Positions 11,917 to 27,656 of a DNA stretch of 64,000 bases are shown in pieces (the first letter of the stretch is position 1; each line of letters begins with the position of its first letter). Where the stretch lies: the NCBI RefSeq assembly GCF_026013645.1, contig NZ_CP110224.1, positions 3,720,001 to 3,784,000 on the forward strand, read 5' to 3'. Below the pieces are notes generated by a model. The model saw nothing but the letters and a program-made list of their open reading frames with translations. It did not search any database and had not been told where the DNA came from. Origin of the DNA: Virgibacillus natechei. GTDB lineage: Bacteria > Bacillota > Bacilli > Bacillales > Amphibacillaceae. The translations under genes were made by a program, and so were the position numbers.

Positions 11917-13116
11917 CTATATAACTCTTACAGTAACAATATCTCGGGTCCGCTTAATTTCTTCCTCCAAGCTAGAAACAACCGCTTCATCTATTTCATT
12001 TTCAATATCAACCATCGTATACGCGTAATCTCCACGGCTTCTGTTAATCATATCCGCGATATTCAAGTTGTTATTCGAGATCGCAGTCGTAATTTGTCCA
12101 ACCATATGTGGAACATTGTAATGGAAAACGGTCACCCGGCGTTTCCCTGTGTAAGGAATAGAAGCATCCGGAAAATTCACAGCATTTTTGATGTTCCCCG
12201 TTTCAAGAAATTCCTTTACTTGGCGCGTTGCCATAATCGCACAATTTTCCTCCGATTCTTTCGTGGAGGCACCGAGATGCGGAATTGGAACTGTATTTTT
12301 CATATTCAACACATTCTCATTCGGAAAATCAGTAATATATTTACCAACACGCTCACTTTCTAAAGCCTCGGCCATATCTTGTTCATGGATAAGCCCATCT
12401 CTAGAAAAATTGAAAATATGAACGCCAGGTTTCATTAATTTAAACGTTTCCGCATGGAACATACCCCTCGTATCATCCGTTAAAGGAACATGTACGGTAA
12501 TATAATCAGCCTCTGCAAAAACCTCTTCCATCGACATGGCCCGCTCGATGTTACGAGACAGCTCCCAAGCTGTATTTATAGAAATAAATGGATCAAATCC
12601 AATAACATCCATATCCAGGTCAAGCGCATCGTTTGCTACAAGCGCACCAACAGCACCAAGACCAATGACACCTAATTTTTTCCCTTTTATTTCGCTTCCT
12701 ACTAATTGTTTCTTCCCTGCTTCTACAAGATTTGGAACTTGGTCTCCTTCCCCTTGTAATGTTTTCACCCATTCTACGCCGGAAAATAAATTACGTGATG
12801 ATGCCATTAATGACGTTATGACGAGTTCCTTGACAGCATTTGCATTGGCACCAGGCGTATTAAAAACTGCAATACCCCGTTCCGTGCATGTATCGACCGG
12901 AATATTATTCACACCTGCTCCAGCACGTGCAATTGCCTTTACATTTTCATGGATTTCCATCTCATGCATATTAAAACTACGAACCACAATCGCATCTGGA
13001 TGGTCACTGTCATTGTCAATCGTGTAATCATCTTTTTTAAATACAGCTAGCCCACTTTCTGCAATATGATTTAACGTTTTGATCGTTTTCACTTTGTCTA
13101 GCGTTAATGTGCTCAT
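11917..13116 (-). CDS. serA: D-3-phosphoglycerate dehydrogenase, ACT-domain short form
   Basis: Oxidises 3-phosphoglycerate to 3-phosphohydroxypyruvate, the first step of serine synthesis. At 399 residues it is the compact type without the intervening domain of the 525-residue form. The NAD-binding loop GVIGLGAVGALVAND lies near residue 155, the catalytic Arg in NFSRDGLI near 243, and the catalytic His in PHLGAST near 286. A C-terminal ACT domain (residues 325-399) probably senses an amino acid. It starts 15 bp after serC with AGAGGAG and forms one operon with it. Confidence 0.93.
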   Translation of the reverse strand: MSTLTLDKVKTIKTLNHIAESGLAVFKKDDYTIDNDSDHPDAIVVRSFNMHEMEIHENVKAIARAGAGVNNIPVDTCTERGIAVFNTPGANANAVKELVITSLMASSRNLFSGVEWVKTLQGEGDQVPNLVEAGKKQLVGSEIKGKKLGVIGLGAVGALVANDALDLDMDVIGFDPFISINTAWELSRNIERAMSMEEVFAEADYITVHVPLTDDTRGMFHAETFKLMKPGVHIFNFSRDGLIHEQDMAEALESERVGKYITDFPNENVLNMKNTVPIPHLGASTKESEENCAIMATRQVKEFLETGNIKNAVNFPDASIPYTGKRRVTVFHYNVPHMVGQITTAISNNNLNIADMINRSRGDYAYTMVDIENEIDEAVVSSLEEEIKRTRDIVTVRVI

Positions 13117-13131: not shown

Positions 13132-14214
13132 CTATCTATGTTTATTTTCAAAATCTTTTATAAATGTAACCAACTCCTGAACACCTTCTACTGGCATGGC
13201 ATTATAAATGCTAGCACGCATGCCCCCAACAGAACGATGGCCTTTTAATGTCTCAAGTCCTCTCGCTTGTGCTTCCTTGATAAAAGCTGCATCTACATCA
13301 GCAGAATTGGAAAGAAAAGGAATATTCATCAATGAACGGCTATCTTTTCGTACTGGTGATTGAAATAGGTTAGATTCCTCAAGCGCATCATATAAAAGGT
13401 TTGCTTTTTCCCTATTTATTTTTTCCATTTCCCGCAAGCCCCCACGTTCCTTTAACCATTCAAATACGAGCTTCGCCATATATACCCCATATGTAGGCGG
13501 CGTATTATACAGTGAGCCACTTTCACTATGCGTTTTATAGTTAAGCATAGCGGGGCAATTTTCGGGTGCATGGCCAATTAAATCTTCTCGAATAATAACA
13601 AGTGTCAAGCCAGCGGGAGCGATATTCTTCTGAGCTCCAGCATAAATCAAACCAAATTTCGAAACATCGATTTCCTCAGATAATATATTGGAAGACATAT
13701 CTGCTACAAGTGGTACATCACCTGTATCCGGAATCTTTGCGTAGGTGGTTCCTTCAATTGTGTTATTTGTTGTGATATGCACATAATCCGCTTGCCTGTC
13801 AATCATGGTTCTGTCGACATCAGGAATAGAGGTGAAGTTCGCTTCTTCTGATGATGCAATGACACGAATATCACCGAATTTCTTCGCTTCTTTAATCGCT
13901 TTCTGTGACCAGGATCCGGTATTAACGTAGTCCGCTTTTCCACTTTTAGTCAGCAGATTCATCGGTATCATAGCAAATTGCTGCGATGCCCCTCCTTGAA
14001 GGAAAAGTACTTTATACTCTTTTGGAATCCCCATTAATTCGCGCAGCAACTGTTCTGCTTCTGTAATAATATCCATAAACAAACCTGACCGGTGACTTAA
14101 TTCCATCACAGACATTCCTGAATTTCTATAATTCACTAACTCTTCTTGAGCCTTCTCTAATACTTCAAGCGGAAGCATAGATGGCCCCGCAGAGAAATTA
14201 AACACTCTTTTCAC
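13132..14214 (-). CDS. serC: Phosphoserine aminotransferase
   Basis: PLP enzyme that transaminates 3-phosphohydroxypyruvate with glutamate to phosphoserine; it can also serve vitamin B6 synthesis. The 360-residue length and the N-terminus [11 protein letters not shown] are typical. [10 protein letters not shown] near residue 74 and the PLP-lysine region [12 protein letters not shown] near 190 are intact. The GTG start follows AAAGGATGTG. It is first in serC-serA. Upstream on the same strand lie element A copy 2, a glycine riboswitch and a ZTP riboswitch. Confidence 0.95.
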
Positions 14215-14233
14215 ATCATCACATCCTTTATTT

Positions 14234-14855
14234 TAGGCTGTTTTCTAAAAGATTGTTGTTTTGACACAAAGGATATAAAAGACGAAGCAGTGACAATTCC
14301 TTTGCAAACGCTGGTTGAGAGCAAGGATTCGCTCCGGAAACACATTTCGCTTTCCGCGGGCGGCTGGTGAGCCTCCTCGTGCTAACGCACTCCGGGGTCT
14401 CACCTAGGCCTTTCCTCCCGCGCCGAACAGGACGTTCAAGTGTCGGCGTTGGTCACAATGGTTTGCGGTGGGGCGAGCATTTACGCGCAGCCCCAGGACG
14501 TGACCACTCTTAGCCGACCAGGAGTCTTCATGTGTTTCCTCCGCTGGGTGTTCCGTTTACAAAATATAGAACCATCTCATCAGTTCGGTTGAGCGAAGGG
14601 CGGTGGCTCCTGCGCGAATAGCACGTGTCCGAAGGCCCCACAGCAATATTCCAAGGAAGGTCGACTAATACCGTTCTTTGCGAACAACGTCGACATACCC
14701 TTTGCCAGGGCAAGGCCGTGCCGGCGGAAAGCATCCGCCCGGAACGATCCCGAACGGCGATTATAGCAACTACTTATACAAATAGTAGTTACGTCGTCTT
14801 TTTATATCAACTCCGAAGATGTATAACCAACAATACTTATGAAAAAAGCCTTAAT
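14234..14855. repeat. Dispersed palindromic element A, copy 2, with extra inserts
   Basis: A diverged copy of the element at 2463-2950 with the same ends (AAAGACGAAGCAGTGAC and TTACGTCGTCTTTTTA) and core (GCTTTCCGCGGGCGGCTGG). It has two extra blocks: about 100 bp near 14420-14520 with its own inverted repeats (GGTCAC with GTGACC), and about 70 bp near 14642-14712. It occupies the leader between the riboswitches and serC. No gene is seen in it. Confidence 0.72.
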
Positions 14856-14882
14856 TTAAATCTTACTGACTACAACAGCTAT

Positions 14883-14916
14883 AAAAAAAGAGACTGGGCC
14901 CCAGGGCTCCAATCTC
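14883..14916 (-). terminator. Glycine riboswitch expression platform terminator
   Basis: On the minus strand GAGATTGGAGCCC pairs with GGGCCCAGTCTC, followed by seven T. It lies 40 nt after the glycine aptamer, with another hairpin (ATAACAAAT/ATTTGTTAT) in between, and fits a transcription-termination switch. Confidence 0.85.
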
Positions 14917-14955
14917 ATCAGCATTAAAAGATATAACAAATACACATTTGTTATT

Positions 14956-15022
14956 CTTCTGTCCTTTTGCCTGAGATTGTGAACCCGTCGGCGTTGCAAT
15001 GTGCTTGCATCCTCTCCAGAAG
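14956..15022 (-). ncRNA. Glycine riboswitch (single aptamer)
   Basis: The minus strand carries the hallmark glycine-aptamer blocks: GGAGAGGATGC at the 5' side and CTCAGGCAAAAGGAC at the 3' side, enclosed by a CTTCT/AGAAG P1 stem. Only one clear aptamer is present, so it is the singlet type. A terminator follows. In the family, glycine usually turns expression on. The only gene downstream on this strand is serC (730 nt on), across element A. Either it controls serC-serA or its original target was lost. Confidence 0.88.
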
Positions 15023-15121
15023 CTGCTCCTGTTATAGTGTTACCCACAACAATCATAGCTTTTTTCTATTCTATTTTTACATGTAAAATACGTTTGATTC
15101 CCAACTCATCGCCCCCCTAAT

Positions 15122-15232
15122 AACGCAAAGAGGCAAGGGGAATATACACCCCTTACCTCTGCCCAGGCGAACGACTATTGATACCATGTGCTCCCTCGCG
15201 GTTATTCCGCGTTCGCCAGTTACACATGGCCT
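15122..15232 (-). ncRNA. ZTP (pfl) riboswitch
   Basis: The minus strand reads a CCATGTG/CACATGG P1 stem enclosing AACTGGCGAA and a CGCGG/CCGCG hairpin, then after a linker the hallmark CGCCTGGGCA, all conserved elements of the ZTP (pfl) aptamer. A long stem (GAGGTAAGGGG with CCCCTTGCCTC, 15130-15159) with a weak T tract follows and may be the terminator. ZTP riboswitches sense low 10-formyl-tetrahydrofolate and raise expression of one-carbon and purine genes; serine synthesis fits, as serine is the main one-carbon donor. Confidence 0.82.
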
Positions 15233-15254
15233 TTATTGGTTAATATTCAATGTA

Positions 15255-15260
15255 ATTATA
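15255..15260 (-). promoter_or_regulatory. -10 element of the riboswitch leader
   Basis: A perfect TATAAT on the minus strand lies about 25 nt upstream of the ZTP aptamer. The -35 (near TTGAAG) is weak or badly spaced. It would place the transcript start near 15248. Confidence 0.5.
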
Positions 15261-15450
15261 GTAACAAAATCTTCGATAATCTTCAAGTGATAATGGTTGG
15301 TTTTTTAAAAGATGGCAAATGGAGCAGTTTTCTTTCCACAGAAGAGCTGAAAGGTGCTATAATGGCCTTCACGCAACATGAAACACACTGACAATAGCGA
15401 AATTTAGAAAACTTGATTGTCACCAAGCTTTTGGGTGACAACCAAAGCCC

Positions 15451-27363: not shown

Positions 27364-27425
27364 TAAGTAAGTGTATAAGGCTTTCATGGGTGGTGGCTCA
27401 CTCCCTGTAAAGGGGGTGATAAGAT

Positions 27426-27506
27426 ATGACGGTATTTGAAACAATGTTGATTACGATTTCTTTTGGAAGTCTAGTCGTTGCAATTCTGTCAAATCAAAAA
27501 AAATAA
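27426..27506 (+). CDS. Type I toxin, holin-like small membrane peptide
   Basis: A 26-residue peptide (MTVFETMLITISFGSLVVAI and a LSNQKK tail) with one membrane helix and a basic tail, the pattern of TxpA/BsrG-type toxins often labelled putative holin-like toxin in Bacillaceae. AAAGGGGGTGAT lies before the ATG. A convergent antisense RNA overlaps its 3' end. Overproduction of such peptides damages the membrane. It is too short for usual gene finders. Confidence 0.8.
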   Translation: MTVFETMLITISFGSLVVAILSNQKK

Positions 27507-27656
27507 CCCACCCATAGCCTGACAAGCATTTTTGGGTTGGTTACTTTTTCTGTAATTACTCTGATAAATGTGAGTCGCCCCCTTGAAGGGCTATTACACT
27601 AAGGCTGAATGGTGTTACTAGCACCGTTCAGCCTTTATTTATTTTATGTGCTTCTA
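27500..27656 (-). ncRNA. Antisense antitoxin RNA
   Basis: A good minus-strand promoter (TTTACA at 27685-27690, 16-bp spacer, TATACT at 27663-27668) points toward the toxin. The RNA would end at a hairpin (TAACCAACCC/GGGTGGGTTA) with eight T at about 27498-27505. The toxin mRNA itself would end at AAGGCTGAATGGTG/CACCGTTCAGCCTT (27601-27635). The two transcripts thus overlap by about 130 nt at their 3' ends, as in txpA-RatA. Confidence 0.7.

Follow-up and report, generated by a model that had tools for sequence, protein, structure and literature searches.

The closest described systems are the ZTP/glycine tandems of PMC9481103 (RNA Biol 2022), where the passages on such pairs report five examples from Bacillus and Oceanobacillus, located before the gene that starts serine synthesis, and predict an ON then OFF logic for them. 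For glycine riboswitches generally, the accessible parts of PMC6944388 have genomic context predicting ON or OFF action. No other description of the tandem was found in the portions of the literature searched, which included PMC7266159, PMC13273304, PMC9295807, PMC6944388 and PMC5829553.

We analysed a locus of this kind in Virgibacillus natechei (GCF_026013645.1), whose genome is a single contig of 3.87 Mb. The window, that is, the whole 64,000-nt stretch of DNA under analysis, covers positions 3,720,001-3,784,000 of NZ_CP110224.1, and coordinates below are those of the window. An initial annotation had placed a ZTP aptamer at 15160-15230 and a single glycine aptamer at 14956-15022, both on the minus strand, each with a terminator-like stem and with serC-serA as the downstream genes. 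Both aptamers scored above the Rfam gathering thresholds and were thereby upheld: the ZTP/ZMP (pfl) model RF01750 matched 15154-15233 on the minus strand at 60.5 bits (gathering 39), and the glycine model RF00504 matched 14949-15029 on the same strand at 43.2 bits (gathering 32), with a P1 (15022-15017 paired with 14961-14956) whose end-to-end span is exactly the one annotated. A hairpin follows each aptamer, at 15160-15129 after ZTP and at 14916-14890 after glycine. Scanning the window with all Rfam models (cmscan) gave three matches over the gathering score, namely ZTP, glycine and a distant BsrG-like RNA, and no second glycine match over gathering within the window. Across the whole genome ZTP matched once, at this locus, and the only other glycine matches listed were two overlapping ones at 2,066,754-2,066,965, the second just under gathering. 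Neither a T box nor a further known sensor was found in Rfam at E values up to 1 within 14150-15400, and a CsrC match in the leader (12.8 bits, gathering 61) was discarded as chance. The BsrG-like RNA, at 27369-27629 on the plus strand (90.5 bits), contains a 26-codon frame at 27426-27506 and presumably resembles a type I toxin-antitoxin system with a small membrane peptide.

The first downstream gene is securely serC, encoding phosphoserine transaminase with a GTG start (13132-14214, minus strand; NF003764, 572.6 bits against a cut-off of 253). It is followed by a gene for a 399-aa 2-hydroxyacid dehydrogenase (11917-13116, minus strand), which is likely serA: the protein matched PF02826 and PF00389 over their cut-offs, an ACT domain at 26.1 bits, just under the cut-off of 27, and, as its best NCBIfam model, TIGR01327 (3-phosphoglycerate dehydrogenase) at 238.3 bits, under the cut-off of 454. 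Besides serC, no minus-strand frame over 68 codons was present in 14214-15300.

We assessed how widely this arrangement occurs by searching 159 genomes of the family with RF01750, using stricter filters with which weak matches may be lost, and obtained 66 sites in 53 positive genomes. A tblastn search with the SerC and SerA proteins of the window found serC and/or serA downstream, within the stretch fetched, in 59 of the 66 sites (both genes in 11, serC alone in 27 and serA alone in 21), which suggests serine supply as the main target of ZTP control in this family. The remaining seven sites precede three FolD-like genes, three sodium:alanine symporter genes and one methyltransferase-like gene, where the FolD and methyltransferase names come from reading the sequences and not from a family search. 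In two genomes (L064:2837-3915 and L096:2248-3310) the serC match falls in two pieces, from a frameshift, an assembly error or decay. According to the Rfam scan, a glycine aptamer lies just downstream on the same strand in 11 of the 66 sites.

An exact pattern comprising the 3' part of the glycine aptamer and its terminator was also run over a collection of named genomes from 84,980 species and returned nine loci, in six Oceanobacillus, Cytobacillus depressus and two Bacillus sp.; every one had ZTP upstream and serC or serA downstream (9/9 for both). A pattern search in 397 genomes of the order recovered the genome itself and G075 only, an exact pattern over a sample that does not bound the distribution. 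Combining the named-genome loci with those of the window's genus (G000, G153 and G154) gave 12 distinct leaders, five of the nine named loci probably being the same as family genomes, and in each leader the pair stands ahead of serC-serA, serC or serA. Both aptamers, both hairpins, their order and their joint conservation are thus established by sequence and models. Mapped onto a 36-row SerA tree, the tandem requires two changes of state, with one clade of nine tandem genomes (support 99/94) and another of three from Bacillus/Cytobacillus (100/99), between which branch ZTP-only genomes that share a genus code with the Oceanobacillus loci. This topology is compatible with the tandem having been gained twice, with a transfer of the leader, and with a single gain followed by losses.

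Upstream of the ZTP aptamer a leader promoter is predicted at 15258-15286 on the minus strand, with TTGAAG (15286-15281), a 17-nt spacer and an extended -10 element, TGnTACTAT (TACTAT, 15263-15258). Promoter-like site scoring, applied to the upstream stretch without a shuffle control, gave TTGNAN, 17 nt and a TG before the -10 as the best site in 10 of the 12 tandem leaders; the scoring listed an equal-scoring TTGCCA-17-CATTAT in place of the TTGAAG site for the window, and O. damuensis had a different best promoter-like site. The ZTP expression platform (15119-15160, minus strand) consists of a 12-bp hairpin, AGAGGTAAGGGG/CCCCTTGCCTCT (15160-15129), followed by an interrupted U tract, TTGCGTTATT. 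This tract is weak, with four T in the first eight bases versus a family median of five, and the hairpin was absent from those listed by a terminator consensus scan; a stem of at least 9 bp follows 63 of the 66 ZTP aptamers of the family. A motif scan of the family ZTP loci further identified a G-rich, Shine-Dalgarno-like motif directly after the hairpin (AGGGGGGCGAT, 15108-15118, minus strand), and G-rich motifs of this AGGRGG-like form are present in 11/11 ZTP-glycine loci compared to 17/55 other ZTP loci. In the predicted fold of the window the motif pairs with the CGCC strand of an aptamer. A leader peptide after the ZTP hairpin was considered and rejected, as start codons and short frames seem unconserved among the leaders when compared by eye, uncounted.

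The glycine aptamer core reads GGAGAG, CGCCGA and CUCAGGCAAAAGGAC, matching the glycine consensus, with CGCCGAC in the window and G153 and CGCCGAA in the other ten leaders. Immediately 5' is a hairpin (15030-15051, minus strand; TGTTGTG 15051-15045 with TATAACA 15036-15030), possibly a ghost aptamer, which is paired in 100% of cells in the 12 leaders, three of its seven pairs varying on one side and none on both. Judged from its conservation, this hairpin may make the glycine switch a type-2 singlet. A conserved spacer hairpin (14933-14954, minus strand) separates the aptamer from the terminator, with 93.2% of cells paired in the 12 leaders and three of nine pairs changed on both sides. The intrinsic terminator itself (14883-14916, minus strand) is formed by GAGATTGG (14916-14909) and CCAGTCTC (14897-14890), followed by seven T at 14889-14883. 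Over the 12 leaders the glycine-unit structure as named here forms in 98.3% of cells, and its four two-sided pair changes (one in P2, three in the spacer hairpin) were equalled in 1 of 500 shuffles.

The 5' arm of this terminator, GAGAUUGG, is invariant in 12/12 leaders and can pair with the glycine aptamer core, a pairing favoured by the folds in all 12. In the window, AATCTC at 14973-14978 (minus strand) is the proposed antiterminator strand and would pair with GAGATT at 14916-14911; by sequence, the terminator and antiterminator pairings are mutually exclusive. In every leader the fifth base of the arm is a U that makes a U-G wobble in the terminator but pairs fully with a core A in the putative antiterminator, which is what dual use of the arm would require. 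When the RNA was folded only up to the arm, the free energy equalled that of the forced antiterminator to 0.1 kcal/mol in 12/12 leaders. At the stage where the 3' arm has yet to be transcribed, the antiterminator fold is more stable than the aptamer fold by 3.8 to 15.7 kcal/mol (12.8 in the window), ligand and tertiary contacts being uncounted in these energies, and the model therefore needs the ligand to bind while transcription is under way. Once the terminator is complete, the two states lie close together, and the antiterminator is the lower one in 4 of the 12 leaders (the window, G153, G154 and B299); in the window, where GGGUUC/GAGCCC pairs are added to it, the antiterminator is favoured over the terminator fold by 6.5 kcal/mol.

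Controls for this pairing gave mixed results. Contiguous Watson-Crick complementarity between arm and aptamer exceeded that of shuffled arms in 11 of the 12 leaders (p ≤ 0.05; O. massiliensis, p = 0.13) and, with G-U pairs allowed, in only 3/12 (p < 0.05). In folding, between 4 and 37 of the 200 shuffled arms made for each leader performed equally well. In the proposed antiterminator register 88% of cells are paired, and no more than 56% once that register is shifted. The antiterminator showed no covariation in the 12 leaders, where five of its seven pairs are constant and another forms in just 2/12; covariation thus failed as a proof, the strands being too conserved. The leaders share kinship, such that the complementarity and folding tests are not independent, and the shuffle controls support the OFF model only moderately. 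Our reading of the glycine switch as OFF leans less on these statistics than on the arm's position and invariance and on its match to the published prediction.

Taken together, we think it probable that serC-serA are controlled by two transcription checkpoints in series, a ZTP ON switch followed by a glycine OFF switch. A single transcript would begin near 15251 and cross both switches. When 10-formyl-THF is short, ZMP/ZTP would bind the ZTP aptamer and prevent the 15160-15129 terminator. If glycine is absent, the core AAUCUC (14978-14973) would then capture the arm GAGAUU (14916-14911), allowing transcription to continue; if glycine is bound before the arm is made, the core would be held in the binding pocket, leaving the arm free for the 14916-14890 terminator to form. 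The output would be expression of serC-serA when ZTP is present and glycine is absent. Ligand binding, the direction of each switch, the single transcript and its passage through an inserted repeat (see below) are what we infer here. The two-input control of serine synthesis put forward as plausible in the initial annotation is retained, because the aptamers pass their models, the glycine platform is best read as OFF and the ZTP platform is of the usual ON type. Serine donates one-carbon units to folate, leaving glycine, and the leader appears to read a shortage signal together with a by-product, which would make it a compact and chemically sensible gate. To our knowledge, RNA gates with two inputs are scarce in nature and for the most part predicted, and the 12 leaders with a named antiterminator offer a direct test case for two riboswitches in series.

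Between the glycine terminator and serC lies a mosaic insert of a high-copy interspersed repeat, about 620 nt long (14233-14857). The matches listed for it within this genome comprised 137 stretches, the insert itself among them, and those for its central 233 nt comprised 50; the best places of four matching records in a plasmid collection all fell at 14346-14405, inside the repeat. Matches to Bacillaceae-1 RNA (RF01690) in the insert, at 14424-14529 on the minus strand (31.7 bits) and 14649-14710 on the plus strand (26.1 bits), were below the gathering score of 35. With the insert, serC starts 676 nt past the last stem base of the glycine terminator, and the distance from the ZTP aptamer to serC is 940 nt compared to 306 nt in the sister genome G153. 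The insert could uncouple serC from the leader by providing a start site below both switches, and it contains a candidate, a promoter-like TTGATA-17-TACTAT at 14782-14810 on the minus strand that matches 9/12 consensus positions. If this promoter drove serC-serA mostly independently of both switches, the leader would be partly vestigial. We regard this as unlikely: the count of promoter-like sites in 14200-15400, three over the two strands, is no better than chance (1.7 in shuffles, sd 1.7), the leader of the window is not decayed and keeps both platforms as in relatives without the insert, and O. massiliensis likewise keeps its leader despite an insert that looks similar by eye.

The two switches might also belong to separate transcripts, with a promoter between them feeding the glycine switch, such that glycine would exert the control and ZTP act as a booster. 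TTGATA/TTGATT-17-TATTGT does recur downstream of the ZTP hairpin and ahead of the glycine unit in three Bacillus/Cytobacillus leaders (L139, L140 and L142), but it is the best inter-switch site in those three only, and the best site between ZTP and glycine beat shuffles in 0 of the 12 leaders (p 0.22 to 0.96), making this arrangement improbable. That the glycine switch is instead ON, as before glycine-cleavage genes, with glycine and ZTP jointly activating serC-serA, is harder still to credit, although glycine riboswitches may be either ON or OFF by context (available text of PMC6944388) and a bit score gives no direction: the terminator arm is complementary to the very core that bound glycine would occupy, and activation of serine synthesis by its own downstream product would make little sense. 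A change of ligand in the glycine-like aptamer, as in glycine-GGAnGA variants, seems far-fetched, since RF03166 matches 14955-15060 at only 43.1 bits compared to a gathering score of 110 and the core retains the glycine consensus.

Two further arrangements around ZTP were found among the 66 family sites. In three of these, from three genomes sharing one genus code, Rfam placed a glycine riboswitch with two aptamers after ZTP, ahead of a sodium:alanine symporter gene (L111:3725-4084, L113:3804-4179 and L123:4096-4471, minus strand); the gene of L111 matched PF01235 at 514.7 bits, and those of L113 and L123 look very similar to it by eye. With P1 of the second aptamer forced, the ribosome-binding site lies within a hairpin in 3/3 symporter leaders; when the fold is left free, this hairpin gives way to other structure in two of the three (not L111), yet parts of the site pair elsewhere. 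Translational OFF control by glycine is therefore only a suggestion from these folds. The word "alanine" is absent from the main text of PMC9481103, and the arrangement is possibly unreported.

The second arrangement, in five of the 66 sites, has a purine aptamer (RF00167, 71.3 to 77.8 bits) and then ZTP on the same strand, 107 to 179 nt apart, ahead of serA (L072:2802-3157, L080:2783-3115 and L124:3124-3447 on the plus strand; L083:3506-3866 and L126:3448-3736 on the minus strand). The aptamer core, GACTA, has a C at what we take to be the position where guanine-type aptamers carry C. By eye, a hairpin and a following T-rich stretch can be made out in every gap, L072 showing the weakest example; the gap of L083 is also spanned by a stop-to-stop frame. 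Going by this layout, two-input control is possible for these leaders, and the purine/ZTP pair is absent from Table 2 of PMC9481103 and from its passages on guanine. We tentatively propose, as a generalization that may or may not hold, that leaders for serine supply in this family combine riboswitches around ZTP and that ZTP-glycine control arose at least two times with different mechanics: an ON/OFF terminator on serine synthesis in which the empty core captures the arm, and a symporter leader that apparently hides its ribosome-binding site. In a third combination, ZTP-serA would be preceded by a purine aptamer that has a terminator to itself. If true, the recurrent rule would be to make or import one-carbon donors at a ZTP-signalled shortage unless glycine or purine is plentiful.

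In relation to the known systems, the two-input idea is already in print in PMC9481103, and the present locus is a further member of the class it describes and may be among its five examples. It carries ZTP and then glycine on a single strand, both equipped with a platform of their own, ahead of serC and then the probable serA, and it shares with the published ZTP/glycine tandems the riboswitch classes, their order, the genus range, the kind of target and the predicted ON/OFF logic; it differs in that the corresponding passages of PMC9481103 give no expression-platform model and describe no repeat insertion. The named antiterminator model is thus sharper than those passages, and what is added to them is the set of 12 leaders, this model, the repeat insertion here and two side arrangements absent from the main text. 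In the same paper's account, the glycine/T-box(Ser) tandem before serC, serA and serS likewise puts a glycine OFF element on serine synthesis, but its glycine part has two full aptamers, and a T box stands where this locus has ZTP. The ZTP/THF-I tandem likewise joins a ZTP ON switch to another switch with OFF action, although there the second sensor is for THF and the targets are folate genes (passages in PMC9481103). Type-2 singlet glycine riboswitches, as presented in the accessible parts of PMC6944388, similarly consist of a single full aptamer preceded by a conserved hairpin, but 90% of those precede transport genes, whereas the glycine switch here precedes genes of serine synthesis.
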